Positions 4,053 through 30,657 of a stretch of 33,699 nt of DNA are shown here, one piece after another. The stretch comes from Ectothiorhodospiraceae bacterium (GTDB lineage: Bacteria > Pseudomonadota > Gammaproteobacteria > XJ16 > Halofilaceae): assembly GCA_007134775.1 (NCBI GenBank), contig SLKC01000025.1:1-33699 (forward strand). The letters run 5' to 3'. Position 1 is the stretch's first letter, and each line of letters starts with the position of its first letter. Under the pieces are notes generated by a model. The model was not told the origin of the DNA, made no database searches, and was given only the letters and a program-made list of their open reading frames with translations. A program made the position numbers and the translations under genes.

Positions 4053-5744
<1,692 letters not shown>

Positions 5745-10234: not shown

Positions 10235-11554
10235 TCAGTACGCGGAGTCGCGGCCCTCGGCCCGGGCGCGCTCGCGCGAGCTCGGGTTCACCGACGGACG
10301 GAAGGGCATCTCCACGACCTCGGCGTGCACCGGATGGCCCGGATAGGGCTGATATTCCTCCGGCAGCCAGGCGACGAGTTCGGTGCCCAACTCAGCCTTA
10401 TCGACCGCCACGTAGGCCATACCGATGTTGACCTCGAGTTCGGGCGAGTACCATGGCGAGGTAATCCAGCCGATGGGCTCTCCCTCTTCGCTTTCGGCCA
10501 CCAGCCAGAAGTCGGACGCGTAGTCCTCGACCGGCTTGCCGCCGAGTTTCAGACCGACGAGCTGGTGATGGAACGGCGGGTTGCCCGCGTTGACCTGCTC
10601 CCGGGTGCGCTCAAGCGCTTCCTTGCCAATGTAGTGCGCCTCCTTGGTCTTCGGCACCATGTGGCCGAGGTAGCACTGGAACGGGTTGGTCTCGTGGTCG
10701 AGATCCTGGCCGTAGGAGAGGATGCCGGCAGCGATACGCCGATGGTGGGCCGGGGCGATGACCATCAGCTCGTGCTTTTCGCCCTCTTCCTTGATCTTGT
10801 ACCAGACAGTCTCGGCGTTGAGCGTGGAGTCGTAGGGGTAGACCTCGTAGCCCTTCTCCCCGCTGAAGCCGGTCTGCGAGATGATGCAGTCGACGCCGGC
10901 GATCTTCGCCGCCATCAGGCCGTAGTAGGGCACGTCGCGGATGCCCTCGCCGACCAGATCGACCATCAGGGCCTCGGACTTCGGCCCCTGGATCTGCAGC
11001 GGCGAGACGTCGATCTCGTCGATCTCGACGTTGTAGCGGGCGAAGACGTTGATGCCCTGGAACCAGTACATCAGGTCCGAATCGCTGATGGTGAACCAGA
11101 ACTCGTCATCGGCAACCCGCAGCATGACCGGATCATTGAGGACATGGCCTTTCTCGTTACACAGGATCACGTAGCGGCCCCGCATGACCGGCACCCGGGT
11201 GACGTCGCGCGTGCACACGAGGTTGCAGAAGGCCTCGGCATCGGGACCCTTGACCCGGATCGGGCGCTCGACAGCCACATTCCACAGCGTGACGTGGTTG
11301 ACCAGAGCGCGGTACTCGACCATGGCGCCCCCGTCCTCGGGACGCACGTAGCCGCGGGGGTGGTACATGCGGTTATAGACCGTGGCACGCCAGCAGCCCT
11401 CCTCGCAGGAGAGGTGCCAGTAAGCGGACTTGCGCACGCGGTTCGAGATCAGCAGGCGAATGCCGGCATCACCCGTCTGACGGAGATTGATCGGGACCTT
11501 GCGATCGCTTTGATCAATGGACTGCTGGTAGTTGACGTTGCTGTAGTCGGTCAT
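10235..11554 (-). CDS. GcvT/DmdA-like tetrahydrofolate-dependent aminomethyltransferase family protein
   Basis: A 439-residue member of the glycine-cleavage T-protein fold, starting at ATG 11554 behind GAGGAG (11563-11568). Family features are ALVNHVTLWNVAVERPIRVKGPDAEAF near residue 82, GHVLNDPVMLRVADDEFWFTISDSD near residue 135, DVSPLQIQGPKS near residue 180, TGFSGEKGYEVYPYD near residue 225, and AAGILSYGQDLDHETNPF near residue 275. The SDSD and SPLxIQGPKS patterns resemble DMSP demethylase (DmdA) and related O/S/N-demethylases more than true GcvT, but the protein is about 60-70 residues longer than both. These enzymes pass a one-carbon unit to tetrahydrofolate. The substrate cannot be told from the sequence. 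No gcvH or gcvP is nearby, arguing against glycine cleavage. It is a single-gene unit behind a cobalamin riboswitch, so expression should rise when B12 is scarce. Confidence 0.82.
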   Translation of the reverse strand: MTDYSNVNYQQSIDQSDRKVPINLRQTGDAGIRLLISNRVRKSAYWHLSCEEGCWRATVYNRMYHPRGYVRPEDGGAMVEYRALVNHVTLWNVAVERPIRVKGPDAEAFCNLVCTRDVTRVPVMRGRYVILCNEKGHVLNDPVMLRVADDEFWFTISDSDLMYWFQGINVFARYNVEIDEIDVSPLQIQGPKSEALMVDLVGEGIRDVPYYGLMAAKIAGVDCIISQTGFSGEKGYEVYPYDSTLNAETVWYKIKEEGEKHELMVIAPAHHRRIAAGILSYGQDLDHETNPFQCYLGHMVPKTKEAHYIGKEALERTREQVNAGNPPFHHQLVGLKLGGKPVEDYASDFWLVAESEEGEPIGWITSPWYSPELEVNIGMAYVAVDKAELGTELVAWLPEEYQPYPGHPVHAEVVEMPFRPSVNPSSRERARAEGRDSAY

Positions 11555-11582
11555 GTCGAGAGCTCCTCACCCTGAAATATGC

Positions 11583-11688
11583 ACATCCTGCATGCGGGAT
11601 GTCGGGTGCAAGCTCGCGGCGAGTATCGACTTCACCAACGCCGGGCGTTCCGGCGTCGACACGCTGTCACGCCCCCATCTATGGGCGT
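11583..11688 (-). promoter_or_regulatory. Structured leader between riboswitch and GcvT-like gene
   Basis: Three hairpins can be drawn in the RNA of the minus strand. They are an interrupted stem at 11688-11669 (ACGCCC with GGGCGT), a 7-bp stem at 11656-11638 (ACGCCGG with CCGGCGT, 5-base loop), and an 8-bp stem with a CATG loop at 11602-11583, ending 14 bases before the ribosome binding site. None has a U-run. The region 11555-11769 holds no convincing gene. These may be the expression platform or a second control layer. Confidence 0.45.
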
Positions 11689-11769
11689 TCACCGTCGCCT
11701 GTCGTCGCGGCCCACCGGGCACCCCGCCCGCTCGGACCTCTGGGAATACGCCGACACGCAAGGTACGGC

Positions 11770-11960
11770 GCAGCCGACGGCAGGTTTCCTGGCTCGCGGG
11801 TCGCCGCATCGAACCGCCTTCCCGATCGCTCGGTGGCGAATTTGGCTCGACGCTCGTCGCTTACAGTTGCGGGGGCAGCTCCGGACTGGCCCCGGGACGC
11901 CACCCGCATACACGCGGGATAAGCGCCCCGTAGGGCTCCACCGGATTCCCTTTTCCCTCT
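11770..11960 (-). promoter_or_regulatory. Cobalamin (adenosylcobalamin-type) riboswitch
   Basis: Read on the minus strand, the conserved blocks come in order: GGGAATCCGGTGG (11950-11938), CTGCCCCCGCAACTGTAAGCG (about 11879-11859), GGGAAGGCG (11823-11815), and the B12 box GAGCCAGGAAACCTGCCG (11795-11778). Order, spacing and sequence match the cobalamin riboswitch family (Rfam RF00174). It lies about 215 bases before the GcvT-like gene on the same strand, with no other gene between. A UUCG-capped hairpin (11972-11957) sits just upstream. B12 binding would be expected to lower expression. A start site was not located; TACGAT (11996-11991) is a possible -10. Confidence 0.93.
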
Positions 11961-12049
11961 CCCGAAGGAGAGGCACCGTTGGCAGGAGAGATCGTACCGG
12001 GGCGATGGAAGCGGCCGGCGTCCTGCCGACGACGCCGCCTTGCCCTGCG

Positions 12050-12084
12050 GCGACGCCGGCGGCCCAGGGGGGCGCCGGCGTCGC
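12050..12084 (-). terminator. GC-rich hairpin after sapC-like gene
   Basis: A perfect 12-bp inverted repeat (12050-12061 with 12073-12084) with an 11-base loop lies 36 bases after the SapC-family stop and before the riboswitch. There is no U-run, so termination is only suggested. It may separate the two transcription units. Confidence 0.45.
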
Positions 12085-12119
12085 TCAGGGACTTGCGGTG
12101 CGCGCGCAGCGAGCGCCGC

Positions 12120-12875
12120 TCAAGCGGCGTCTTCGCTGCCCTGGCGAGCCGATAGACGGCTGACCAGACGATTCATGTTGGTGAGCGAGGCGAGGTGGGA
12201 GTAGACCCAGGCCAGCTCGCCCTGGCGGAAGAGCTTGAGCGCGGGCTCGTCGTCGAGCGCGAGCAGTTTCTTCTCGTCCACTACCTGGAGACCGCCGAGC
12301 GCGAGCCGCCCACCTTGGGGCAGTTGCACCCGCGCGGTGAGTTCAGTAAACAGATCAAGCTCGGCCAGGTGCGCGGTGAAGCGCTCTACGCGGGCGTACT
12401 GGCGCTGATACTCGCTGAGGAAGTCGACCGCGCGCTGCAACGCCGGGCCGTTTTCCCCGTCGTCGGTGAACAGGCGCTCGCCGTCGTCATCACTGCCGCC
12501 ACTCGCGGTGAAGCCACTATAGGCCTCATCGACGCAGACGGTGTATCCAGAGCTCTCGGAGCGGGCGAGGATGAAGGGGTAGCGGCGCGCGAACGCGGGC
12601 ACATAGCGCGCATCCCAGGCACCGTCTTCGCCGACAAAGAGATTCTCCTCGTTGCGCAGACCGAGCAGCGCAACCGGCACATAGCGGTCCTCGCCAAGGC
12701 GGGAGAAGACGATCGGGTACTCCTTGCTCGCCTCGATGAACTCAACGCCGGCGAGCAGAACCGAATTGGTCCCCTTGGCGAAGGAGTAGTCACCCGAAAT
12801 GCTGCGGATGCGAGCGTCCCGATGCTTGTTGCGATTGATGGGCGTGGGTTGTCCGTAGAACATCAACGTAGCCAT
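12120..12875 (-). CDS. SapC-family protein
   Basis: A 251-residue soluble protein starting MATLMFYGQPTPINRNKHRDAR at ATG 12875, with AGGA about 9 bases upstream. The pattern resembles the SapC family (PF07277): an N-terminal AIRS-like strand with FAKGTNSVLLAGVEFIEASKEYPIVF near residue 33, ALLGLRNEENLFV near residue 69, and WDARYVPAFARRYPFILA near residue 86, followed by an acidic loop and LALGGLQVVDEKKLLAL late in the protein. The name comes from a gene near the Caulobacter S-layer secretion locus; its biochemical role is unknown. No S-layer or type I secretion gene is visible here. It diverges from the unknown gene at 12994, with 118 bases between. Confidence 0.83.
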   Translation of the reverse strand: MATLMFYGQPTPINRNKHRDARIRSISGDYSFAKGTNSVLLAGVEFIEASKEYPIVFSRLGEDRYVPVALLGLRNEENLFVGEDGAWDARYVPAFARRYPFILARSESSGYTVCVDEAYSGFTASGGSDDDGERLFTDDGENGPALQRAVDFLSEYQRQYARVERFTAHLAELDLFTELTARVQLPQGGRLALGGLQVVDEKKLLALDDEPALKLFRQGELAWVYSHLASLTNMNRLVSRLSARQGSEDAA

Positions 12876-12993
12876 GGAAATATTCCTGAAGGTTTGTGAG
12901 ATTTGCTACACGACTGGGCATGGGCGACCGCCCTGCGCCTGCCGGCGCATCCCAACACGCCCCCTGCCGCTATTCAACGGGGAAGGGCACGGG

Positions 12994-13635
12994 ATGAACC
13001 GTGGCGGGGCGCACGTGCTCCGACCAATATCGTACAATGTTGCGCTGACATCCGAGCTGGAGCTCGAATTGGCCCGTATCGAACGCATGCACATGGAGTA
13101 TATCCCAGGGGAGGACCGGATACGCCTGCGCGTGCGTACGAGCGACCCGGCCGAGGTGCGATGTTGGCTGACGCGCCGCTTTACCCGGCACCTGTGGCAG
13201 GCGCTGGAGAAGACGATGGCGGACGACCCCGAGCTGGCCGCCGCGAGTTCCCCCGGGGAACGCTCGGCCCGCCTCGCCCGCAAGCACGAGCGTGCCAACG
13301 CGCTTTCGCCCGCGCGCGAGGAACGGGCCGATGCGGAGACGCAGAGTGAGGCGAAGACGCAGGGCGAGCAACCGGCCGAGTTCCCCCTGGGGCCGCAGCC
13401 ACTGCTGATCACGCGCCTGCGGGTGCGCCGGACTGAACACGGCCACCGTCTCTCCCTGCTGCCCCCTGACGACGAGACCGAGGGGTTGCATATCAACATG
13501 GACGAGACCCTGCTGCACCGCTTCGCTGCCCTGCTCGCCCGCTCGGCCGAGCAGACCGACTGGGGGCTGGAGCTCAAGCCGCCGAGCCTGGCCGGCGCAC
13601 TCGGCGGCCTTCAGCCCGGCGAACGAGTCCACTGA
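12994..13635 (+). CDS. Conserved-looking hypothetical protein, first gene of the ABC/mutM run
   Basis: Unrecognised protein of 213 residues if it starts at ATG 12994, with GGGGAAGGG (12979-12987) upstream. The part that looks constrained is in the middle: MHMEYIPGEDRIRLRVRTSDPAEVRCWLTRRFTRHLWQAL (from residue 32), then an acidic/charged linker, then PLLITRLRVRRTEHGHRLSLLPPDDETEGLHINMDETLLHRFAALLARS. It is soluble, with no signal peptide. An alternative start is ATG 13087 (MHMEYIP): a -10-like TACAAT sits at 13033-13038, which would place a promoter inside the longer reading. It ends 2 bases before the ABC ATPase start and is likely cotranscribed with it. No function is proposed. Confidence 0.7.
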   Translation: MNRGGAHVLRPISYNVALTSELELELARIERMHMEYIPGEDRIRLRVRTSDPAEVRCWLTRRFTRHLWQALEKTMADDPELAAASSPGERSARLARKHERANALSPAREERADAETQSEAKTQGEQPAEFPLGPQPLLITRLRVRRTEHGHRLSLLPPDDETEGLHINMDETLLHRFAALLARSAEQTDWGLELKPPSLAGALGGLQPGERVH

Positions 13636-13637
13636 GC

Positions 13638-14606
13638 ATGGCAGGGGCCAATACGCTGATCGAGGCGAGTGGACTGGCGTGCCACTACGGTGACACCCAC
13701 GCCGTCGACGGCGTTGACCTCGAGGTGCGACAGGGCGACGTCCTCGGCCTGCTCGGCCCCAATGGCGCAGGCAAGAGTTCCACCCTCGGGATGATTTGCG
13801 GCACCTTGGCCCCGACAGCCGGGCGCGTGCGCATCGCCGGCGTTGACCTCATCGAATCGCCGCGCCGTGCCAAACGCGCGCTCGGCTATCTACCGGAGGA
13901 GCCGCCGCTCTATCCCGAGATGAGCGTGGCCGAATACCTCCACTTCTGTGCGGGGCTGCGCGGTCTGCGCGGCAGCGCGCGGCACCGTGCGCTCGATGCC
14001 GCCATCGAGCGCTGTAGCCTGGGCGAAATGCGCCACCGCGTGATTGCGCGCCTGTCGAAGGGCTACCGTCAGCGCACGGGCGTCGCCCAGGCGATCCTCC
14101 ATGCCCCCGCGGCCATCGTGCTCGACGAGCCCACGGTCGGCCTCGACCCGATCCAGGTCCGCGAGATCCGGGACCTGATTGCCGGCCTCGCCACGGAGCA
14201 CGCCGTCATCCTGTCGACGCACATCCTGCCCGAAGTCCAGGCCGTGTGCTCCCATGTCCACATCATGCATCGCGGGCGCATCGCCTGGCGCGACACGCTG
14301 AATACGCCCACCGCGGCACGGGCCAGTGGTGCCGTCCGCGTCGCCCTCACCGGTGATGTCGCGCTGCCGCACGATCTCCCGGGCGTGACCGCGGTCGAGA
14401 CCCTGGGGAGCGGGCGCTACCGGCTCGAACTCGAGACCGCACCGGAGCCCGTACCGAGACTGGCCGCGGCGCTCGTCGAGGCCGGCTGCGGCCTGCTCGA
14501 ACTCGTGCCCGAAACACGTTCGCTGGAACAGGTCTTCGTCGAAGTCACGGCCACCGACGTCACGGCCACCGAGGAGGCTGCGGCATCGCAAGGGCAGGCA
14601 GCATGA
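13638..14606 (+). CDS. ABC transporter ATP-binding protein, GldA/NatA-like
   Basis: A 322-residue ABC ATPase that powers export or a membrane machine together with the next gene. Walker A is GPNGAGKS (residues 40-47), the signature region is LSKGYRQR (139-146), Walker B is IVLDEP (160-165), and the switch His is in STH (195). The C-terminal about 110 residues form the extra domain typical of ABC-2 type ATPases such as GldA, CcmA or NatA. It begins 2 bases after the unknown gene and overlaps the permease start by ATGA, so translation is coupled. Confidence 0.93.
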   Translation: MAGANTLIEASGLACHYGDTHAVDGVDLEVRQGDVLGLLGPNGAGKSSTLGMICGTLAPTAGRVRIAGVDLIESPRRAKRALGYLPEEPPLYPEMSVAEYLHFCAGLRGLRGSARHRALDAAIERCSLGEMRHRVIARLSKGYRQRTGVAQAILHAPAAIVLDEPTVGLDPIQVREIRDLIAGLATEHAVILSTHILPEVQAVCSHVHIMHRGRIAWRDTLNTPTAARASGAVRVALTGDVALPHDLPGVTAVETLGSGRYRLELETAPEPVPRLAAALVEAGCGLLELVPETRSLEQVFVEVTATDVTATEEAAASQGQAA

Positions 14607-15358
14607 TCGGTGTCATCGCGCAACGCGAGATCGCTGCCTGGTTTCGCTCACCGCTGGCGTGGATCCTGCTGGCCGTGGTCCAGGCATTGAGCGCCTTCAT
14701 CTTCCTGCTGCATCTTGAGGCGTACCTGGATCTGCAGCAGGAATTCCGCGCTGAGCCGGGCGCCCCCGGTGCCACGGCGTATCTGGTGCCGCGAGTGCTG
14801 GGCGCCGGCTCCGCCGTGGTGATGCTTGCGCTGCCCGTGGTCACGATGAACCTGATGGCCGGTGAGCGGCAGCGCCGCTCGCTGCCGCTGCTGCTGAGTG
14901 CCCCGGTTGCGACCGTGGAGATCATCGCGGGCAAGTACCTCGCGCTCATCGCCATGCTGACCGCTCTGGTCGCGACACTCGCCATCATGCCACTCACCCT
15001 GGCCTTCGTCGCACCCATCGATCTGGGGCTGCTCGCCGTGGCCATTGTCGGGGTCTGGCTGTTCATCGCCGCCGTCGCCGCTGCCGGCCTCTATCTCTCC
15101 ACGCTGACGCGGCAGCCAGTCATCGCCGCGATCAGCACGCTGGGCCTGCTGCTGGTGCTGCTCCTGGCCGGTGAATGGAGCGGCACGCTCGAGGGCCCGG
15201 TGGCAGAGGCCGTGCGCTATCCAGCGCCAAGCACGCACCTGCTGCCCTTTCTCTCCGGACTGCTGGACACGAGCGCGGTCGCCTACTTCGTGCTCTTTGC
15301 CGGTCTCTTCCTCACCCTGGCGACCCGGCGACTGGACAACGAGCGCCTACCGCGCTGA
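14603..15358 (+). CDS. ABC-2 type permease, GldF-like
   Basis: A 251-residue membrane protein with about six hydrophobic segments. It opens with IAQREIAAWFRSPLAWILLAVVQALSAFIF, the usual ABC-2 permease start in GldF-type proteins. The segment MNLMAGERQRRSLPLLLSAPVATVEIIAGKYLALI near residue 88 is the cytoplasmic coupling motif (ExxxGTLE/LLSxPV-like) seen in this family. It overlaps the ATPase gene by 4 bases and is followed 6 bases later by the GldG-like gene. The substrate is not known. Confidence 0.9.
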   Translation: MIGVIAQREIAAWFRSPLAWILLAVVQALSAFIFLLHLEAYLDLQQEFRAEPGAPGATAYLVPRVLGAGSAVVMLALPVVTMNLMAGERQRRSLPLLLSAPVATVEIIAGKYLALIAMLTALVATLAIMPLTLAFVAPIDLGLLAVAIVGVWLFIAAVAAAGLYLSTLTRQPVIAAISTLGLLLVLLLAGEWSGTLEGPVAEAVRYPAPSTHLLPFLSGLLDTSAVAYFVLFAGLFLTLATRRLDNERLPR

Positions 15359-15364
15359 AGCCCC

Positions 15365-16726
15365 ATGAAGATCGATCCCACCACACGACGACGGCTCCGG
15401 CTGCAGAACCTGGTCTTTACGGTACTGGTATTGGCGCTCGTCGCGCTGGGGGGCTGGCTGACCCACATGTTCAGCTATACCAGCGACTGGACCGCGACAG
15501 GGCGTCACACCCTGGGTGATGAGACCCGCGACGTCATCGCTTTGGTGGACGACACCGTCGAGATCACCGCGTACATCGGCCCGGACGCCGTCACCCGACG
15601 CGGCGTCGAGGCCCTGATCGAACGCTACGAGTCCGCCGGCCTCGAGCTTGAGTTCGACTTCGTCAACCCGGAGGAGAACCCCACACTGGCGCGCGAACTC
15701 GACCTGGACCCCGGCGGGGAAGTCATCATCCGCCTCGGCAATCGGGAGCAACGCCTCGCCAGCCTCGACGAGGCCGAACTGACCAATGCCCTCGCGCGTC
15801 TGGCTCGCGGCGAGGACCGTTTCATCGCCTTCGTCGAAGGACACGGTGAGCGCGACCCGCTGGGCGAGTCCAATCATGATCTTGGCGATTTCGGCGAACA
15901 GCTCGCCGATCGCGGCATATACCCCCAAGCCATCAATCTCGCCGCGACGCCTCAGGTACCCGACAATGCAGATCTGTTGGTGATTGCCGGACCACAGTCC
16001 AATTACCTGCCCGGTGAGGTCGCAGCAATCCAGCGCTATCTCGCCGACGGCCGCAACCTGCTGTGGCTCACCGAGCCAGAGGCGGATGATGGCCTCGATG
16101 ACCTGGCCGAACTGCTCGCCATCGCGCGCCTGCCGGGCGTCGTGGTGGACGCCGGCGCCCAGCAGTTCGGTGCCGAGCGCCCCGATTTCGCCGTGGTCAC
16201 GGACTATGGCGAACACCCGATCACTGCCGATCTCGATGCCATCACGGTGTTCCCCCAGGCGTCGGCTCTGGAGGCATTCAGCGCCGAGGGCTGGCACCAT
16301 AAGCCGCTGCTGCGCACGCGCGAACAGAGTTGGAACGAGACCGGCCCCATCGAGGGGCGCATCTACCAGGACCCGCAGGCCGGCGAGGTCGCGGGCCCGC
16401 TCGCACTTGGCTGGGCCGCTACGCGCGGACCCGAGCCGGCCCACGACGAACCGGATACGCAGCGCGTGGCCGTCATCGGGGACGGTGATTTCCTGTCGAA
16501 TGCCTACGTGGGGAATGCCGGCAACCTGGAGTTCGGCATGCGGCTCGTCCGCTGGCTCGTGGCCGACGACGACCGTGTCCGTATCGCGCCGGAGCAGCCC
16601 GCCGACATCGAACTGGACAGGTCGCCACTGGCTCTAGGTATCATTGGGGTCGGCTTCCTGCTCGTGCTGCCCCTTGTCCTCCTCACGCTCGGTGCCATCA
16701 TCTGGTGGTATCGACAAAAACACTGA
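15365..16726 (+). CDS. GldG-family ABC-type auxiliary protein
   Basis: A 453-residue protein with an N-terminal membrane anchor (LVFTVLVLALVALGGWLTHMF, residues about 15-35) and a C-terminal anchor (LALGIIGVGFLLVLPLVLLTLGAIIWWY), enclosing a large extracytoplasmic domain. The start of that domain (DWTATGRHTLGDETRDVIALVDDTVEITAYIG) and FVEGHGERDPLGESNHDLGDFGEQLADRGIYP near residue 155 are typical of GldG/IFT52-like domains. GldG partners GldA and GldF. Outside Bacteroidetes such clusters are common but their substrate is undetermined, and gliding is not implied. The gene is in a tight run with its ABC partners and a DUF4340 gene. Confidence 0.88.
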   Translation: MKIDPTTRRRLRLQNLVFTVLVLALVALGGWLTHMFSYTSDWTATGRHTLGDETRDVIALVDDTVEITAYIGPDAVTRRGVEALIERYESAGLELEFDFVNPEENPTLARELDLDPGGEVIIRLGNREQRLASLDEAELTNALARLARGEDRFIAFVEGHGERDPLGESNHDLGDFGEQLADRGIYPQAINLAATPQVPDNADLLVIAGPQSNYLPGEVAAIQRYLADGRNLLWLTEPEADDGLDDLAELLAIARLPGVVVDAGAQQFGAERPDFAVVTDYGEHPITADLDAITVFPQASALEAFSAEGWHHKPLLRTREQSWNETGPIEGRIYQDPQAGEVAGPLALGWAATRGPEPAHDEPDTQRVAVIGDGDFLSNAYVGNAGNLEFGMRLVRWLVADDDRVRIAPEQPADIELDRSPLALGIIGVGFLLVLPLVLLTLGAIIWWYRQKH

Positions 16727-16733
16727 GATCGCC

Positions 16734-17588
16734 ATGCGGACTCGATCCTGGACCAATATCGCGCTGTTGCTCGCTGTAGCCATTGTCGCCACCGCGATCT
16801 TCCTTCTCCGCGACGGGGATCGCCTCGACCCCGCGCCGCTGACCGAACTCGAGCCATCGGCCATCACCGGCTTCGAGGTCCAGTACAGCGACAACCGCCC
16901 CGAACTCATCCTGCGGGGAGATGGTGAGAGCTGGCGCATCCTCGAACCGGTGAATCGCGAAGCGCGTTCGGGGCGGATCGTTCGCATCCTCTCCTTCCTC
17001 GATGATCGGATCGACGCCTGCTATCAGCGCAGTGAGGAGCGCATGACGGAGTTCGGCCTTGACGCCCCCGACCTGACACTGGTCGTCGATGGCGTCGAGA
17101 TCGAGTTCGGCGACCGCACAGCGGACGGCCGGCGCTATGTGGGTGCGGGCGAGCGCCTCTGCCTGGTCGACGATGTCGCCTATCCGTTGCTCGCGGGCGG
17201 CGCCACCGAGATCGCCGTTCTCGCGCTCCTGCCGCGCGGGGAACAACCGATCGCGATCGAGGGGCCGACGGCCCATGCCGTGGACCCACAGGCGCGCGAC
17301 GAGTGGGAGTTCATCGAGGGCGAAGGGGCCGGACACCGCTGGGCCGTGCGCTGGCGCTCTGCCCATCTCTCCGATTTCGACATGGATCCGCCGGACGATG
17401 ACCATGGCGAGATCCGCATCGAGCTGGCCAATGGCCAGGTCCAACGCTGGCGGATCGCGGCGGAGGCTGGCGAGGAGAGCGACCTCATCCTCGTACCCGA
17501 GGGAGCAGACTACGGGCTGGTCATTGCGCGCGACGAGGCAGCAGGGCTGGTCGCCCCTCCCGAGAGGGTCGAGGACGGCTTGAACTGA
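16734..17588 (+). CDS. DUF4340 domain-containing membrane-anchored protein
   Basis: A 284-residue protein starting MRTRSWTNIALLLAVAIVATAIFLL at ATG 16734, 7 bases after the GldG-like stop. A longer in-frame reading would overlap the preceding gene and is rejected. One N-terminal membrane segment is followed by an extracytoplasmic domain with repeated strands (WRILEPVNREARSGRIVRILSFL near residue 63, EFGLDAPDLTLVVDGVEIEFGDRTADGRRYV near residue 105). That is the usual DUF4340 layout. DUF4340 genes regularly follow GldG genes in proteobacteria and cyanobacteria, so a shared envelope complex is inferred. Biochemical role unknown. Confidence 0.85.
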   Translation: MRTRSWTNIALLLAVAIVATAIFLLRDGDRLDPAPLTELEPSAITGFEVQYSDNRPELILRGDGESWRILEPVNREARSGRIVRILSFLDDRIDACYQRSEERMTEFGLDAPDLTLVVDGVEIEFGDRTADGRRYVGAGERLCLVDDVAYPLLAGGATEIAVLALLPRGEQPIAIEGPTAHAVDPQARDEWEFIEGEGAGHRWAVRWRSAHLSDFDMDPPDDDHGEIRIELANGQVQRWRIAAEAGEESDLILVPEGADYGLVIARDEAAGLVAPPERVEDGLN

Positions 17589-19189: not shown

Positions 19190-19218
19190 AATATACTGGA
19201 CCACTCAGTGGCTTCCAA
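19190..19218 (-). promoter_or_regulatory. Promoter candidate for the DUF1566 gene
   Basis: On the minus strand TTGGAA (19218-19213), a 17-base spacer and TATATT (19195-19190) lie about 60 bases before the start codon. The -35 lies inside the final codons of ggt. Spacing and sequence are good, in an otherwise GC-rich context. Confidence 0.5.
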
Positions 19219-20881
19219 CCCGACCCCGCGCGCGTGCTGCGCCGACGCCGCGGGGATCAGCCGCGACATCGATTTCGCCGTCCGCCTCCACGACCACGGC
19301 CTGGCTGTTGCCCCATGTGCGCCCGAGCGCCTCGAGTTCATGGCCCCGTTCCTCAAGTCCGGCCCGCACGGCATCGTCGAACGCATCGGGCTCGTGCTCG
19401 ACGACATCGGGCAGGTACTGATGGTGATAGCGCTCAGGCTCGACCAGTGCAGCCGCGTGACCGCCCTCGCGGAACTCGAGCGCGGCGAGCAGCACCGTGG
19501 TGATGATCCGGCTCCCGCCGGGCGTGCCGATCACGGCCGCCCGTTCGCCGTGATCGAGCAAGGTCGGCGACATGCTCGAGAGCATGCGCTTGCCCGGCTC
19601 GATGCGATTGGCATCGGACTGCACCAGCCCGTAGGCGTTCGGCTCGCCCGGCTCGACGGTGAAGTCGTCCATGTGGTTGTTCAGGATCACGCCCGTCTCC
19701 GGCGCCATGAAACCGGAACCGAAGGGATAGTTCAGCGACAGCGTCGCCGCGACCCGGTTGCCATCGCCATCAACGACGGAGAAGTGGCTCGTGTTCCGCC
19801 CTCCCTCCGGCACCGCGGGGCCAGGGAAGATGTCGCTCGGCGTCGCCCGGTCTCGGCGGATCGTGGCACCCAGACCGGCGGCGTAGTCGTCGGCGAGCAG
19901 GCGGTTGACCGGCACATCGACGAAATCCGTATCCCCGAGATAGCGCGCGCGGTCGTGATAGGCGCGGCGCATGACCTCAACGATGATGTGGATGCGTTCC
20001 GCCTCGTCCACCGCATCAAGATCGAAGAGGGAGAGCATCTGGAGCATCTGCGCCAGCGCGATCCCCCCCGACGAGGGCGGTGGGGCCGAGGCCAGGCGCA
20101 GGCCGTCGACCTCGACCTCGATGGGCTCACGCTCGGCCACCTCATAGGCAGCCAGATCATCCCGACTCCAGAGACCGCCGGCGGCCTGCACTGCCTCGAC
20201 GAGCCGCGCGGCCACCGGGCCGTCGTAGAAGCCATCATGACCGTGGCGCGCGAGCCGCTCCAGCGTCTCCGCGAGTTCGGGCTGGCGAATCAATGCCCCC
20301 TCCGCCGGCACCTCGCCGTCGGCGAGGAAGACCTCGGCCCCGTGCCCCCAGGCACGCAGCACATCGGCCCGGAAGTCCGCCAGCCAGGCGTAACGCTCAT
20401 CGACCTCGAAGCCCTCACGTGCGAGACGGATCGCGGGCGCGAGTACCGCGTCGAGATCGAGATCGCCGTACGCCTTGGCGATATGCACGAGGGCCGCGGG
20501 CGCGCCGGGGATGGCAGCGGCGAGCGGACCGTCGAGCGCCTGCTCCGGCTCGGCCTCGCCTGCGGTGAACAGGTCCGCCTCCGCTGCGAGGGGCGCGCGC
20601 TCGCGGCCGTCCACCATGACGCGCTGGTCGGCACCGGCATCCTCGAGCAGCCAGAACCCGCCCCCGCCGAGCCCGGAACCGTAGGGTTCGACAACGGCGA
20701 GAGCGGCGCTGACCGCGACCGCCACATCGAACGCGTTGCCCCCGACCGCCAGCACTTCCTCCCCAACCTCGGTCGCCAGGGGGTGCGGGGTCGCGATGCC
20801 GTGGGCGGGCTCGGCGGCGGCCGGGGCGACCTTCAGGAGCAGAACGACCAGCATCAGACCCAGCAGAGTACGACGCATCAC
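19205..20881 (-). CDS. ggt: Gamma-glutamyltranspeptidase, exported
   Basis: A 558-residue Ntn-hydrolase precursor. The signal peptide is MMRRTLLGLMLVVLLLKVAPAAAEP, so the enzyme is periplasmic or secreted. The large-subunit start (GIATPHPLATEVGEEVLAVGGNAFDVAVAVSAAL) is standard. Autoprocessing should occur before the Thr in NTSHFSVVDGDGN near residue 367, which becomes the N-terminal nucleophile of the small subunit. MLSSMSPTLL and GTPGGSRIITTVL near residue 450 form the rest of the active site. It hydrolyses or transfers the gamma-glutamyl group of glutathione and similar amides. The ATG overlaps the coaD stop (ATGA), an unusual coupling to a CoA gene. Confidence 0.95.
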   Translation of the reverse strand: MMRRTLLGLMLVVLLLKVAPAAAEPAHGIATPHPLATEVGEEVLAVGGNAFDVAVAVSAALAVVEPYGSGLGGGGFWLLEDAGADQRVMVDGRERAPLAAEADLFTAGEAEPEQALDGPLAAAIPGAPAALVHIAKAYGDLDLDAVLAPAIRLAREGFEVDERYAWLADFRADVLRAWGHGAEVFLADGEVPAEGALIRQPELAETLERLARHGHDGFYDGPVAARLVEAVQAAGGLWSRDDLAAYEVAEREPIEVEVDGLRLASAPPPSSGGIALAQMLQMLSLFDLDAVDEAERIHIIVEVMRRAYHDRARYLGDTDFVDVPVNRLLADDYAAGLGATIRRDRATPSDIFPGPAVPEGGRNTSHFSVVDGDGNRVAATLSLNYPFGSGFMAPETGVILNNHMDDFTVEPGEPNAYGLVQSDANRIEPGKRMLSSMSPTLLDHGERAAVIGTPGGSRIITTVLLAALEFREGGHAAALVEPERYHHQYLPDVVEHEPDAFDDAVRAGLEERGHELEALGRTWGNSQAVVVEADGEIDVAADPRGVGAARARGRVGSH

Positions 20882-21450: not shown

Positions 21451-21478
21451 ACGCCGCAGCGCTAGCGAGCCGCGGCGT
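21451..21478 (-). terminator. Possible lysR terminator hairpin
   Basis: ACGCCGC (21451-21457) can pair with GCGGCGT (21472-21478), loop 14 bases, touching the lysR stop codon. There is no U-run, so this is only a weak suggestion of a transcript end between lysR and coaD. Confidence 0.25.
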
Positions 21479-22401
21479 CATATCGTGGGCGCGCGCGGCG
21501 CTGCCGCCGCGGTCGCGAGCCAATCGCGCAGCCGTCCCACCGGGCTGTCTTCGGGCACGGGTCGCAGACACCGAAGATAGAACGCCCCTTCCGTCACCAG
21601 CGGGGTGATCGGCAGGGAACTGAGGTGGCCGGCCGCGAGCAGATCATCCGCCAGATGCTGCCAGGCCAGCGCGACCCCCTGACCGGCAACCGCCGCCTGC
21701 AGCAGCATCGGATAGGAGTTCACCCGAATGGAGCGGCGCGGGCGCTGATGCTCCACGCCGAGACGGCGGAACCAGCTCGGCCAGCCGATCCAGTCCGGAT
21801 GATCATCGTCAAGCACCAGCAGGGTGTGATCCCGCAGCGCCTGCGGCGTCCGTGGCGCGCCCTCTCCGGCGAGATAGCTCGGTGCGCACACCGGGAAGAT
21901 GACCTCGCCGAAGAGATGCCGGTCCCCGGTTGCGGCTGGCGGCTTTCCGGCGTAGGCGATCAGCAGATCGACCTCGTCGGCGGCGGTGGCCACATCGTGA
22001 TCGGAGGCGAGCACGCGGATCTCCAGGTCGGGCTCGCGATGGCGGAAGCCGCTGAGCCTCGGCATCAGCCAGAGCGAGGCCAGCGCACTGCTGGCGCCGA
22101 TGGTCACCGGCCCGCTACCCCCCTGGGGCCCCAGCTCCGCGGTGGCCGCGGCCAAACGCTCCAGTGCCTCGCGCACAGCCAGGCGGTAGCGCTCGCCGGC
22201 CGGCGTCAATACAACCCCGCGCTCGCGCCGATGAAACAGCACCACGCCGAGGCGCTCCTCGAGCTGGCGGATCTGGCGGCTGATCGCACCCTGGGTGATG
22301 CTGAGTTCACCTGCCGCCCGGGTGAAGCTGGCCAGGCGGGCCGCGGCCTCAAAGGCGCGCAGCGTCTGCAACGGCGGCAGGGTGCCGGGCTTTCTCTCCA
22401 T
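21478..22401 (-). CDS. LysR-family transcriptional regulator, GcvA-like
   Basis: A 307-residue LTTR. The N-terminal winged helix-turn-helix is PPLQTLRAFEAAARLASFTRAAGELSITQGAISRQIRQLEERLGVVLF (residues about 9-56), a form seen in the GcvA/AmpR branch. The rest is the periplasmic-binding-like effector domain, with ITIGAS-type opening (VTIGASSALASLWLMPRLSGF near residue 100). It starts at ATG 22401 and diverges from the Rieske oxygenase with 170 bases between, the usual LTTR arrangement, so it probably controls that gene and itself. The ligand is not predictable from the sequence. Confidence 0.93.
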   Translation of the reverse strand: MERKPGTLPPLQTLRAFEAAARLASFTRAAGELSITQGAISRQIRQLEERLGVVLFHRRERGVVLTPAGERYRLAVREALERLAAATAELGPQGGSGPVTIGASSALASLWLMPRLSGFRHREPDLEIRVLASDHDVATAADEVDLLIAYAGKPPAATGDRHLFGEVIFPVCAPSYLAGEGAPRTPQALRDHTLLVLDDDHPDWIGWPSWFRRLGVEHQRPRRSIRVNSYPMLLQAAVAGQGVALAWQHLADDLLAAGHLSSLPITPLVTEGAFYLRCLRPVPEDSPVGRLRDWLATAAAAPRAPTI

Positions 22402-22453
22402 TGGCTACGCCTTGCGCCTGCAGGGGCGACATCCCCGGAAGCCATGATGTCAG

Positions 22454-22510
22454 TGCATACCGCAAATGCAAAATCCTCGATTGTGCAGACGTTCCACACG
22501 GTCCTACATT
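22454..22510 (+). promoter_or_regulatory. LysR-type operator and promoter of the Rieske gene
   Basis: TGCAT (22454-22458), seven bases, ATGCA (22466-22470) is a perfect dyad containing the T-N11-A core of LysR boxes. Just downstream are TTGTGC (22481-22486), an 18-base spacer and TACATT (22505-22510), a fair sigma70 promoter 61 bases before the start codon. The dyad is centred about 55 bases before the inferred start site, as expected for LTTR activation. Confidence 0.5.
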
Positions 22511-22571
22511 CTTGTTGGTCATCACCCCTGATCCGGCCGAGACGGTTACCGCACAAACGCAGGAGGTCACC

Positions 22572-23777
22572 ATGTCTGCACCCACGAATCTGCCACGGGA
22601 CCGCATTGCGGCTGCCCTGGAAGACACGCCCAACGCCAGTGGCCTGCCCAACCCCCTCTACGTCGAAGCGGGCATGCTCGAACTCGAGCGCGATCAGCTG
22701 TTCGCGCCCACGTGGACGGCGCTCGGCTTTGCCAGCGACGTCCCCGAGCCCGGCGATGTACGCCCGGTCACCCTGGTCGGTGTACCGCTGATCCTGCTCC
22801 GCGACCGCCGCGGCGAAATCCGGGTCCATCACAACGTCTGCAGCCACCGTGGCCGCCGGCTCGTGGACGCCCCGTGCAAGGTCGAGGCGGGCCTGCGTTG
22901 CCCCTATCACTCCTGGCATTACGGCCTCGACGGCAGCCTCAAGGGAACGCCGCACATCGGCGGCATGAACGTCCATACCTGCACCGGCTTCGACAAGAGC
23001 CAGCACGGGCTGCGCGAGGTCCCCACCGCGGTCTGGTGCGACATCGTCTTTGTCAATCTCTCGGGCGATGCCCAGCCCTTTGCCGACTTCATCGCGCCGG
23101 TCATGGAGCGGTGGCGCGCCTACTGGGGCGAGACCGGGCCCGAAGAACTCAAGCCTGCCGGTGCTGACGGCCAGGTCGAGCTTGAGGTGGCCGCGAACTG
23201 GAAGCTTGCGGTCGAGAACTACTGCGAGTCCTACCACCTGCCCTGGGTCCACCCCGGGCTGAACACGTATTCGCGGCTCGAGGACCACTACATCGTCCTC
23301 GACGAGGATGGCGAGTCGTTCGCCGGACAGGGCACGCGCGTCTACAACCTGGCCGAAGTGGCCGGTATCTCCTTGCCGAAGCTCTCGCAGTGGCCAGCAG
23401 AACGCGAACGCGAGGCGGAGTACCTGGCGCTCTACCCCAACGCCCTCATCGGCCTGCAGGCCGACCACTTCTTTGTCGTGCTGCTGGAACCGCTCAGCGA
23501 GGACCGCACGCGCGAGCACGTCCGCCTGCTGTTCGTCGGCGAGGCGGCCACCGATGACGAGCACGCAGCGGCCCGCGAATCGACGCTGCAGTCGTGGAAG
23601 ACGGTCTTCGAGGAGGATGTCTCGATGGTCGAGGGCATGCAGCGCGGTCGCGCTTCTCCCGCCTACCAGGGCGGTGTCTTCTCCCCTGTGCAGGACATTC
23701 CGACCCACCATTTTCACCAGTGGACGGCACGTCGGCTCTTGGGCCTGCTGCCGCAGGCCGAGGTGGCGGCAGGCTGA
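22572..23777 (+). CDS. Rieske non-heme iron oxygenase alpha subunit, quaternary-amine type
   Basis: A 401-residue oxygenase component starting at ATG 22572 behind AGGAGG (22561-22566). The Rieske [2Fe-2S] ligands are Cys90, His92, Cys110 and His113 (CSHRG ... CPYHSW). The mononuclear iron site has His222 and His227 in ENYCESYHLPWVHPG, with Asp349 (EEDVSMVEGMQRG) as the likely third ligand. The residue three before the first His is Glu219 where aromatic dioxygenases have Asp. A bridging Glu is the mark of carnitine monooxygenase CntA and related glycine betaine/stachydrine demethylases. So N-demethylation or C-N cleavage of a quaternary amine is inferred, the exact substrate not. No reductase gene is adjacent, and no beta subunit. 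A divergent LysR gene probably regulates it. Confidence 0.88.
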   Translation: MSAPTNLPRDRIAAALEDTPNASGLPNPLYVEAGMLELERDQLFAPTWTALGFASDVPEPGDVRPVTLVGVPLILLRDRRGEIRVHHNVCSHRGRRLVDAPCKVEAGLRCPYHSWHYGLDGSLKGTPHIGGMNVHTCTGFDKSQHGLREVPTAVWCDIVFVNLSGDAQPFADFIAPVMERWRAYWGETGPEELKPAGADGQVELEVAANWKLAVENYCESYHLPWVHPGLNTYSRLEDHYIVLDEDGESFAGQGTRVYNLAEVAGISLPKLSQWPAEREREAEYLALYPNALIGLQADHFFVVLLEPLSEDRTREHVRLLFVGEAATDDEHAAARESTLQSWKTVFEEDVSMVEGMQRGRASPAYQGGVFSPVQDIPTHHFHQWTARRLLGLLPQAEVAAG

Positions 23778-23793
23778 CCGCGCTTCCCCACCC

Positions 23794-23834
23794 GGCGCCG
23801 GCCGCCCCGCTCCGGGGCGATCGGCGCCGGCGCC
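23794..23834 (+). terminator. Nested GC hairpin after the Rieske gene
   Basis: An outer 9-bp stem (23794-23802 with 23826-23834) encloses a 7-bp stem (23803-23809 with 23813-23819, 3-base loop) and a 6-base bulge. It starts 17 bases after the stop but has no U-run. The rest of the gap to 23997 holds an AT-richer patch with AATATC (23868) and GATATT (23904) facing each other, possibly part of the asparagine synthetase control region. Confidence 0.45.
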
Positions 23835-23997
23835 CTTGGGGTGATACGCACGCGCACATCGGCACGAAATATCATGGTCGCGACGCCGGGATGTCGCATT
23901 TTGGATATTATCCGTCGGCGCCCGCCTCAGATCCCATCGGCCCCGCGAGCGCATAATGTGGGCACACTTGACGCGAGCGAGGAGCTCCCTCCCCACC

Positions 23998-25503
23998 ATG
24001 TGTGGAATCGTCGCCCTCTGGGGCCAGAAAGACCCGGAAACTACCCGCAGTATCCTCCAACAGCTTGAGCACCGCGGCCCGGACGGCCACGCCATCAGGA
24101 CGCATGATGCCGGCCCGGGTGCCACCCTCGGCCATACCCGGTTGGCCATCATCGACCCCGAGGGCGGGCAGCAGCCGCTGGTCGACGACCATAACGGCAC
24201 CATGCTCGTCTGCAACGGCATGATCTACAACGACCGCGTCCTGCGCGCTCGCCTCGGTGGCAAACCCTTCCGGACCTTCAGCGACAGCGAGTGCATCCTC
24301 CACGGCTACGCCGCCTGGGGTACCGCCGTCGTCGACCAGCTCGACGGCATGTTCGCCTTCGTGCTCGTCGATGGCCAGGGGCAGTGCTTTGCCGCACGCG
24401 ACCCGCTGGGCAAGAAGCCGCTCTACTGGGGTCGGATCGGCGATGCCCTGGCCTTCTCCTCGGAGATCGCCGCCCTCGCCGCAACGGCGACCGACATCGA
24501 GGAGTTCCCCGCCGGCTGCGCCTGGCACAGCGACCACGGCCTGCGGCGCTATTTTGCGGTCCCCGGGCCCAGCGCCGGTGGGCGTTGCGAGCAACGCGCC
24601 GCGGCGGCCGTACGCGTGACGCTCGAACGCGCTGTCGCCAAGCGCATGCGCTCCGACGTGCCGCTCGGCGCCTTCCTCTCGGGCGGGCTCGACTCCTCAG
24701 CGATTGCGGCGATCGCCCGGCGCCATGTCGATGAACTCCACACCTTTGCCGTCGGTCTGCCCGATTCGAGCGACCTGCGCGCGGCCCGCCGCGTGGCCGA
24801 GCACATCGGCAGTATCCACCACGAACACGTCATCGACCCCGCCGAGATCGGTGACATCCTGCCCGGGATCGTCCGCCACCTGGAGAGCTACGACCGCGAT
24901 CTGGTACGTAGCGCGATGCCGACCTGGTTCGTGTCGCGCCTCGCCGCCCGCGAGGTCAAGGTGGTCCTCACCGGCGAGGGCGCCGACGAGCTGTTCGCCG
25001 GCTATACCTATCATGGCGGCTACGGTGATCCGCACCTACTGCAGGACGAGCTCCGCCGATCGCTGACGGCCATGCACAACGTCAACCTCCAGCGCGTCGA
25101 CCGCATGACCATGTCGCACTCGCTCGAGGCGCGCGTACCCTTCCTCGACCCCGAGCTGGTGCGACTGGCCATGGACATCCCCGCGACGCTGAAGCAGCGC
25201 CCCGCCGCGGGCGGCGACGGCGCGAAGTGGATCCTGCGCAAGGCGTGCGAGGATCTGCTGCCGCACGAGATCGTATGGCGCGACAAGCTGCAGTTCGATC
25301 AGGGCAGCGGCTTCTCGGACTACCTCGCCGATCATGCCCGCAGCGCGTATGCCGAGGGGCATGTCACCGCGGCGTCTGCGGACAGCGCCGAGGAGCGGCT
25401 CTACGAGCAGCTGCTGACCAGCGCCTGCCCAACCCGCGCCGCCGTGGTCAGCGACCTCACCGCGCACTGGCGCCAGGGCCGGACGACGCGCCAGGCCGCC
25501 TGA
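23998..25503 (+). CDS. asnB: Glutamine-hydrolysing asparagine synthetase
   Basis: A 501-residue two-domain enzyme; ATG 23998 is chosen because Cys2 of MCGIVALWG must become the N-terminal nucleophile of the class II glutaminase domain. HRGPDG near residue 34, TRLAIIDPEGGQQPLVDD near residue 55, and CNGMIYND near residue 75 complete that domain. The synthetase domain has the PPi loop SGGLDSSAIA near residue 222, then GEGADELFAGY near residue 325 and MTMSHSLEARVPFLD near residue 372. It makes asparagine from aspartate, ATP and glutamine. It is about 50 residues shorter than E. coli AsnB. Family members also amidate other substrates, so asparagine as product is likely rather than certain. It follows the Rieske gene by 220 bases, probably as a separate unit. 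Confidence 0.88.
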   Translation: MCGIVALWGQKDPETTRSILQQLEHRGPDGHAIRTHDAGPGATLGHTRLAIIDPEGGQQPLVDDHNGTMLVCNGMIYNDRVLRARLGGKPFRTFSDSECILHGYAAWGTAVVDQLDGMFAFVLVDGQGQCFAARDPLGKKPLYWGRIGDALAFSSEIAALAATATDIEEFPAGCAWHSDHGLRRYFAVPGPSAGGRCEQRAAAAVRVTLERAVAKRMRSDVPLGAFLSGGLDSSAIAAIARRHVDELHTFAVGLPDSSDLRAARRVAEHIGSIHHEHVIDPAEIGDILPGIVRHLESYDRDLVRSAMPTWFVSRLAAREVKVVLTGEGADELFAGYTYHGGYGDPHLLQDELRRSLTAMHNVNLQRVDRMTMSHSLEARVPFLDPELVRLAMDIPATLKQRPAAGGDGAKWILRKACEDLLPHEIVWRDKLQFDQGSGFSDYLADHARSAYAEGHVTAASADSAEERLYEQLLTSACPTRAAVVSDLTAHWRQGRTTRQAA

Positions 25504-25525
25504 CCCATCCCGGCGCCGTAGGTCG

Positions 25526-25554
25526 GTCTGAGGCCCGCGCAGCGGGCCGAAGAC
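25526..25554 (+). repeat. REP-like hairpin with tandem G-A mismatches
   Basis: GTCT-GA-GGCCCGC, loop GCA, then GCGGGCC-GA-AGAC: an 11-bp stem interrupted by a symmetrical GA/GA internal loop, which can form sheared G-A pairs. It is 23 bases after asnB and preceded by GTAGGTCG, a start common in gammaproteobacterial intergenic repeats. It may act as the asnB 3' end. No second copy is seen in this window. Confidence 0.5.
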
Positions 25555-25698
25555 GGGCCTGGAGGGGGCGGGCGGAGCGCCTCCCGACTCGGGGCACCCG
25601 ACCGCGCGATGGCGCTGGGCCGCACGCGCCATGCCTCGCGGTTCGCGCCGTTCCAGGCCTCACCGTCGGGCTTGGTATCACCCGACCGACCGTGGGGC

Positions 25699-25727
25699 GT
25701 GACATCGGCGCCGACAGGCACTACATT
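25699..25727 (+). promoter_or_regulatory. Promoter candidate for the VanY-like gene
   Basis: GTGACA (25699-25704), a 17-base spacer and TACATT (25722-25727) lie 27 bases before the start codon. The match is fair and the location fits. Confidence 0.4.
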
Positions 25728-25754
25728 GCCCGAACCCGGAATCAGCAGACCCGC

Positions 25755-26480
25755 ATGCCCGTAACTCCACCCCGGCTCCCTGTCAGGCGCTTCAGCGCAG
25801 TCCTGATCCTGCTGTTGATGGCCGGCTGCGCCGCACCGACGAAGGTGCCCGCCCCCCTGGTCGACGCCGAGGACCCGGTCGAGCGCGCCGATGAGCCCGA
25901 GGCGCGCGATTACCCGTGGTGCGATGCCCCACCGCTGCCCCCTGCCGACAACGCCTATCGCGAGCGCATGGAAGCCATCAACGAGGAGTTCGGCTTCCCC
26001 TTGCACCGTCTGCAGATCGAGGGACTGCGCATGCTGCCCGATGCCGATGCGCTGCAACCGATCGAGATCGACCCCAATCGCGGGATGCTCACCATGAGCC
26101 CGGACGCCGCCTGGGCCTGGATCCTGATGCGGGCGGCTGCGCGCGCCGACGGCATCGGCCTCGTGCCCCTGTCGAGCTACCGCAGCCCGGGGTATCAGAC
26201 CTTGATCATTCGCAACCGGATCGCGCGGGGTGACACGATGGCGGAGATCCTGCACACGAGCCTGCCGCCCGGCTTCAGCGAGCACCACACCGGCGACGCG
26301 ATCGACATCGGCAGTCCCTCTTTCCCCGGTCTGGGGCAGGGCTTCGCGGAGACCGAAGCCTTCGCCTGGCTCGAGGCGAACGCGGCGCGCTTCTGCTTCG
26401 AGCTCTCCTATCCCAAGGACAACCCCTACGGCCTCGCCTTCGAGCCTTGGCACTGGCGGTACGTGCGCCGAGCGCAGTGA
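25755..26480 (+). CDS. VanY-like D-Ala-D-Ala carboxypeptidase (M15B) lipoprotein
   Basis: A 241-residue exported peptidase starting at ATG 25755. The signal is VRRFSAVLILLLMAGCAAP; the lipobox LMAGC predicts lipidation at Cys26 and membrane anchoring. The M15B zinc-peptidase motifs are complete: LSSYRSPGYQTLI, SEHHTGDAIDIG (first His and Asp zinc ligands), and FEPWHWRYV (catalytic Glu region and second His ligand). It should trim the terminal D-Ala of peptidoglycan stem peptides. There are no vanS/R/H/A genes, so a cell wall maintenance role is more likely than glycopeptide resistance. Longer in-frame readings from 25227 overlap asnB and are rejected. It precedes the unknown barrel-like gene by 122 bases. 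Confidence 0.9.
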   Translation: MPVTPPRLPVRRFSAVLILLLMAGCAAPTKVPAPLVDAEDPVERADEPEARDYPWCDAPPLPPADNAYRERMEAINEEFGFPLHRLQIEGLRMLPDADALQPIEIDPNRGMLTMSPDAAWAWILMRAAARADGIGLVPLSSYRSPGYQTLIIRNRIARGDTMAEILHTSLPPGFSEHHTGDAIDIGSPSFPGLGQGFAETEAFAWLEANAARFCFELSYPKDNPYGLAFEPWHWRYVRRAQ

Positions 26481-26602
26481 AACGCAGCCGCTGCCGATTG
26501 GGCGGCCGGCGCCGCGGAGGGTATCGTCGACCCGTGCGCCGGCCTTACCCTCTTGCATCGAACACCGCACCGAGGCGGTGGCAAACCGCGGGAGCCGATC
26601 GC

Positions 26603-27592: not shown

Positions 27593-27620
27593 GCGCCCGC
27601 TAGCCAAAGAGGAGATCCCG

Positions 27621-28565: not shown

Positions 28566-28615
28566 GGAGGACCTGTCACCAGGGACGGGCGCGAGACCGA
28601 CAACGAGGAGTAAGC

Positions 28616-30607: not shown

Positions 30608-30657
30608 GACGCCGTCGTCACCACACGCATGACCGAATGGGCCGGTACGACGGCGTC
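30608..30657. terminator. 11-bp inverted repeat between convergent genes
   Basis: GACGCCGTCGT (30608-30618) and ACGACGGCGTC (30647-30657) are perfect inverted repeats separated by 28 bases, filling the gap between the flavoprotein stop and the ggt stop, with the right arm touching the latter. There is no T-run on either side. It may serve both transcripts. Confidence 0.4.

Follow-up and report, generated by a model that had tools for sequence, protein, structure and literature searches.

Why should a cobalamin riboswitch stand before a solitary gene whose product has a GcvT fold and no cobalamin-binding domain? The question arises from the minus strand of the window (the whole stretch of 33,699 nt of DNA analysed here, from an Ectothiorhodospiraceae bacterium), and we addressed it computationally in a genus sample made up of the window genome (G000) and two congeneric genomes (G001 and G002), using whole-genome searches. 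The encoded protein, which we have named GCVX, probably provides the same bacteria with a B12-free backup for their B12-dependent betaine demethylation. The features of the locus are as follows.

11762..11995, minus strand: cobalamin riboswitch aptamer RF00174, full length (cmscan)
11555..11761, minus strand: leader, from the aptamer to the start codon
11720..11737, minus strand: 18-nt element GTCCGAGCGGGCGGGGTG, just 3' of the aptamer, identical in three species
11563..11568, minus strand: Shine–Dalgarno sequence GAGGAG, kept in all three species of the genus
10235..11554, minus strand: GCVX, 439-residue GcvT/DmdA-fold protein, predicted THF (tetrahydrofolate)-dependent glycine betaine methyltransferase (Pfam/NCBIfam, orthologue neighbourhoods and predicted structure)

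Cobalamin riboswitch and leader of gcvX

The only Rfam match within the window was RF00174, found by cmscan at positions 11995-11762 of the minus strand with a score of 112.2 bits (gathering score 31.5; E 1.4e-27) and with the model covered from end to end (1-189 of 189). By score and by full model coverage this element is a member of the cobalamin riboswitch class, and it is predicted to bind cobalamin and to change expression accordingly. The initial annotation had already placed such an element here, and the search bears it out, the limits first given (11960-11770) being slightly narrow. From the 3' end of the aptamer to the ATG of the 439-residue ORF there are 207 nt.

We examined this leader for a means by which the aptamer could act. 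No intrinsic terminator was found in it, its predicted fold was not significant (z -1.03), short upstream ORFs within it showed no conservation across the three species, and pairings that would sequester the Shine–Dalgarno sequence were inconsistent among these species, with none conserved. The leader is poorly conserved in the three species apart from the element GTCCGAGCGGGCGGGGTG, which was absent from every other fetched locus and is a candidate, judged by its conservation, for part of the expression platform.

GCVX has the fold of DmdA but lies outside its clade

GCVX contains PF01571 (E 1.1e-36) and PF08669 (E 7.9e-11) as its only domains, with no cobalamin-binding domain, and it has the motifs ISDSD and SPLQIQGPKS, so that the 439-residue GcvT-fold ORF with DmdA-like motifs of the initial annotation is confirmed. 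Its closest solved relatives are DmdA (3tfh; phmmer E 4.4e-46) and T-proteins, and a Foldseek search with the predicted structure (mean pLDDT 79.8) likewise ranked DmdA 3tfh first, with a TMt of 0.89 and 28% identity over the structural match. The two proteins share the GcvT fold, the NDP motif and an invariant catalytic-type aspartate (Asp141 in the window protein), and for GCVX, as for DmdA, THF would be the expected acceptor and methyl-THF the expected product; GCVX differs in carrying an additional N-terminal stretch of some 35-40 residues.

The best NCBIfam match was the DMSP demethylase model NF009133, at 257.3 bits against a cut-off of 410. GCVX members of four other genomes scored 259-269 bits with this model, and DmdA-like proteins at two loci (L007 and L016) scored 366-371 bits. 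In a tree in which some outgroup branches are long, a strongly supported branch separated GCVX from the DmdA-like proteins. On the sub-threshold score and the separate clade we rejected membership of DmdA; what survives of the earlier description as a 'DmdA-like demethylase' is the fold, and the assignment to DmdA (257 against 410 bits) does not.

The glycine cleavage T-protein GcvT, which shares with GCVX the fold, the PF01571/PF08669 pair and a TG[FY]SGE-type motif, was rejected as an identity on scores of 149.3 and 123.6 bits against GcvT cut-offs of 300 and 235.9, and the recurrent neighbour clusters described below are not glycine cleavage genes. The TMAO demethylase Tdm, a protein of approximately 760 residues with an N-terminal half before its GcvT-like part, was also rejected, as GCVX has 439 residues, scored 162 bits against 1100 and matched only positions 400-732 of the profile. 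To our knowledge, no member of GCVX has been assayed.

Matches to the GCV_T domain as a whole number 12-15 in each of the genomes G000, G001 and G002, many of them in ORFs of 800-1000 residues, which is an unusual load of methylamine-type enzymes.

Orthologues of GCVX lie among betaine and C1-folate genes

In the riboswitch genus GCVX is solitary, with no betaine genes adjoining it, and its substrate is therefore inferred from the neighbourhoods of its orthologues. A GTDB genome scan with the family alignment yielded 80 orthologues outside the genus, 62-80% identical. GCVX was found in SAR86, HIMB59-type alphaproteobacteria, Marinobacter, Halomonas, sponge-type MAGs, Actinomycetota and haloarchaea. 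The ORFs at the 80 outside loci, weighted by codon-position GC, were clustered and the clusters named from representative sequences, the oxidase and formate-THF ligase assignments being confirmed.

The commonest neighbour was a dimethylglycine-oxidase/dehydrogenase-like gene (49 of the 80 loci), its product being closest to Arthrobacter dimethylglycine oxidase 1pj5, followed by methylene-THF reductase (MTHFR; 25/80), formate-THF ligase and a GlxA/GbdR-type regulator (16/80 each), SoxA (10/80), SoxB (8/80) and serine deaminase (6/80). At least one dimethylglycine or sarcosine gene was present at 50 of the 80 loci, and 31 carried MTHFR, formate-THF ligase or both. In HIMB59-type genomes (L044, L048 and L050), SoxA, a SoxG-like gene, the oxidase, MTHFR and GCVX are consecutive. 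More distant relatives (59-60% identity) are located on haloarchaeal megaplasmids (L167 and L168) near annotated MTHFR and other folate genes, with a BCCT transporter also nearby in Halomicrococcus and FAD-dependent oxidoreductases in Haloarcula, and these occurrences suggest transfer between domains.

Dimethylglycine oxidase, GbdR-type regulators and serine deaminase are typical of glycine betaine catabolism. Taken together, the neighbour sets would spell out the route from glycine betaine through dimethylglycine and sarcosine to glycine, and they point to GCVX at the position of the first demethylase. Among these partners MTHFR is the revealing one: on established biochemistry, dimethylglycine oxidase and sarcosine oxidase yield methylene-THF directly and would not need it, whereas a DmdA-type reaction yields methyl-THF, which would.

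Instead of glycine betaine, GCVX might demethylate another quaternary ammonium compound (proline betaine, carnitine, choline or homarine), replacing another MttB paralogue under the same B12 logic. Each of the three genus genomes holds three or four MttB-family (MTTB) matches, several of them likely to have other substrates, and a Rieske oxygenase, an FadH/OYE-type oxidoreductase and a pyrroline-2-carboxylate reductase in the window would suit proline betaine. Against this, the commonest neighbour across phyla is dimethylglycine-oxidase-like, in the company of GbdR-type regulators and serine deaminase, and we judge such a substrate to be unlikely, if deserving of attention. That GCVX is a DMSP demethylase of the DmdA clade which happens to be B12-controlled is improbable: DmdA is its best solved-structure match in both sequence and fold and the DMSP demethylase model its top NCBIfam match, but the score and clade described above argue otherwise, as do recurrent neighbours of the dimethylglycine/sarcosine and C1-folate type.

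A candidate corrinoid counterpart in the same genomes

If GCVX were a B12-independent isozyme, a corrinoid enzyme for the same step would be expected in the genus, and a candidate was found. In G000 and G002 a single cluster encodes a GbdR-like regulator, MttB, an MtgC-like corrinoid protein, DUF1638, an MTHFR C-terminal protein, MTHFR, a methyl-THF:corrinoid methyltransferase and a RACo activase; the corresponding cluster of G001 has no MttB next to it, and the MttB genes of that genome lie elsewhere. The cluster (L142, positions 11126-17250; L143; L162) also holds a protein of approximately 100 residues, and GbdR-like regulators lie near. A second MttB is close to the structure 4yyc and to the glycine betaine methyltransferase (MtgB) structures 2qne and 9yce, and it adjoins FolD, EtfBA and a dimethylglycine-oxidase-like gene. 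A candidate B12-dependent counterpart, consisting of MTTB, the MtgC-like protein, the methyl-THF:corrinoid methyltransferase and RACo, is therefore present in all three genomes, with MttB substrates assigned by similarity. That GCVX would catalyse the same net reaction is a reading drawn from the orthologue neighbourhoods.

Outside the genus, MTTB was present in 11 of 50 other GCVX genomes, some of these being fragments, and GbcA scored above its cut-off in seven, with no overlap between the two groups; 32 of the 50 have neither GbcA nor MttB, in a count that leaves out Bhmt.

We also considered methionine synthesis. No MetE-type protein (PF01717) was found in the three genus genomes, and therefore methionine synthesis would still need B12. 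The MetH reactivation domain (PF02965) was not found in G000, where a gap is possible as the assembly consists of 201 contigs, and the only PF02574 protein of that genome is of the MtgE/Bhmt type; these findings suggest a split corrinoid methionine synthase in G000, leaving the MtgE-like protein. The proposed bypass would thus aid the use of betaine, and not the supply of methionine, when some B12 or external methionine is available.

These results bear on the two interpretations offered by the initial annotation, of which one gains and the other loses. The first, in which a B12-independent enzyme stands in for a corrinoid-dependent methyl transfer, now has strong circumstantial support from the complete MttB/MtgB, MtgC, methyl-THF:corrinoid methyltransferase and RACo system of the genus and from the clustering of GCVX orthologues with betaine, dimethylglycine and C1-folate genes. 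The second, a supply of methyl-THF at low B12, is disfavoured by the missing MetE-type synthase. A related proposal, that at low B12 GCVX feeds one-carbon units or methyl groups into B12 synthesis or methionine, with no corrinoid bypass, is highly improbable: betaine is indeed an additive in industrial B12 fermentation (PMC8123684), but the demand of corrin methylation for methyl groups is small and, with no PF01717 protein in the three genomes, methyl-THF would be unusable for methionine without B12.

The riboswitch is specific to the genus

Both congeners carry a GCVX orthologue 83% identical to the window protein, with RF00174 elements of 116.5 and 120.9 bits located 217-224 nt upstream of the gene. 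As there are only three or four RF00174 elements per genome, their presence before GCVX in both congeners excludes chance placement. Upstream of GCVX lies SapC in the window, whereas G001 and G002 have a divergent gene there, and folB is located downstream in the window and in G002; because the riboswitch stays while the flanking upstream genes differ, it belongs with GCVX. The other confident riboswitches examined precede genes for BtuB-type TonB-dependent receptors and a CobN-like gene (names from sequence appearance), and this ordinary B12-related context indicates that the genus uses the riboswitch class normally.

In contrast, no B12-box-like element was detected near the 80 orthologues outside the genus in the fetched DNA of up to 8 kb on each side, nor was any sub-threshold or degenerate RF00174 found in the four closest loci, all from Halomonas. 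An association of the riboswitch with the whole family was therefore rejected (0/80) and, as three of three genus genomes have the element, it is genus-specific. The initial annotation had counted riboswitch-free homologues in related genomes against its proposal, and on this point the outcome is divided, the genus keeping the element throughout and the 80 orthologues beyond it having none. The genus and Halomonas copies group in one clade of the tree, with the window protein outside G001, G002 and Halomonas, a topology implying either that the riboswitch was gained early in the clade and then lost in the Halomonas copies, or that it was gained more than once.

We give very little credence to a real riboswitch that exerts no meaningful control over GCVX, through fortuitous placement or as a relic, since a long leader (207-224 nt) with no recognized expression platform and the riboswitch-free outside orthologues would fit it, but intact aptamers of 112-121 bits before GCVX in three species with differing upstream genes, and the invariant 18-nt element after the aptamer, speak against it.

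Weak RF00174 matches of 29-36 bits were also obtained at L003, L022 and L023 (G000:C42, G001:C22 and G002:C2) and are candidate riboswitches only; in each of the three genus genomes, the ORFs near them terminate with a similar short winged-helix-like domain.

Proposed role of GCVX

GCVX shares with metE-type genes an upstream riboswitch (3/3 genomes), a product with no cobalamin-binding domain and a candidate B12-dependent counterpart in the genome. It has been reported that cobalamin represses B12-independent isozymes where both isozymes are present (Kazanov et al., 2007; PMC2211319), and that MtgBCD demethylates glycine betaine in aerobic marine bacteria, as demonstrated genetically (Mausz et al., 2025; PMC12478193). 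In this context, we consider it fairly probable that GCVX is a THF-dependent, B12-independent betaine methyltransferase, an isozyme of the MtgBCD system of the same genome, repressed by B12 through the riboswitch in the manner of metE and metH. The wider proposal, that GCVX is a fourth, unrecognized first-step enzyme of aerobic glycine betaine breakdown in several phyla and haloarchaea, which one genus has placed under B12 control in order to swap routes, we favour by a narrow measure.

In the proposed scheme, GCVX would move the first methyl group of glycine betaine, or of a close quaternary-ammonium relative, to THF, giving dimethylglycine and 5-methyl-THF, and this one corrinoid-free protein would thereby do what MtgB, MtgC and MtgD do through cobalamin. 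With B12 present, the riboswitch would keep gcvX down and the corrinoid enzymes would demethylate betaine; with B12 scarce, the aptamer would be empty, gcvX would be made and betaine demethylation would proceed free of cobalamin. From the evidence above we infer the substrate, which way the methyl group moves, and that B12 acts as repressor rather than activator. As a counterpoint, the 11 other genomes with both GCVX and MTTB had no B12 box at the GCVX loci checked, and so the pairing does not require the riboswitch.

Comparison with known systems

The reaction proposed for GCVX is, in net terms, that of MtgBCD (PMC12478193), betaine + THF → dimethylglycine + methyl-THF; MtgBCD requires three proteins, RACo and cobalamin, whereas GCVX is one cobalamin-free protein of unrelated fold. 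The resemblance to metE is one of regulation, a B12-independent enzyme behind a cobalamin riboswitch with a B12-dependent counterpart (for GCVX, a candidate) in the genome, but metE serves methionine synthesis and GCVX would serve betaine demethylation, and GCVX was not found in the published B12 regulons that we searched. Aerobic betaine breakdown is otherwise known to begin, at the position proposed for GCVX, with the GbcAB monooxygenase, which uses oxidative Rieske chemistry, or with Bhmt, which transfers the methyl group to homocysteine, and both are unrelated to GCVX.

In the sea and in salt water, glycine betaine serves as a major osmolyte and nutrient. For many marine bacteria, the enzymes that carry out its first demethylation have been described as poorly resolved (PMC12478193), and Sun et al. 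(2011) described SAR11 aminomethyltransferases of unknown function, one of them near a betaine transporter (PMC3160333). A partial literature search, with most subscription papers and preprints outside it, returned neither a GcvT-family betaine demethylase nor a gene of that kind behind a cobalamin riboswitch; the regulatory logic is known and the enzyme appears to be uncharacterized. Should GCVX prove to be a betaine:THF methyltransferase, a route would escape markers that rely on GbcA and MtgBC, as the 32 of 50 GCVX genomes with neither GbcA nor MttB (Bhmt left out) would illustrate. It would also be a new entry among B12-controlled genes, a candidate for an unrecognized route of betaine breakdown and a further reaction among the few B12-independent isozymes controlled by cobalamin riboswitches. 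The riboswitch itself gives a separate, regulatory line of evidence on function, and it predicts a B12-dependent choice between two betaine routes.

Other genes of the window

A gene group at positions 21478-30604 encodes a LysR-type regulator, a Rieske oxygenase, an AsnB-like protein, a pyrroline/piperideine-2-carboxylate reductase and an FadH/OYE-type oxidoreductase, and is flanked by two gamma-glutamyltransferases (19205-20881 and 30656-32203). The Rieske oxygenase is GbcA-like, at 144 bits against a cut-off of 670, and the group is possibly, from its gene content, a second quaternary-amine pathway such as that for proline betaine. Genes for a VgrG-like protein (3-1439) and a GroEL copy (4053-5708) were both named from sequence appearance only. 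An ABC transporter operon at 13638-17588 resembles the gliding-motility genes GldA, GldF and GldG, and similar genes lie near GCVX in G002.
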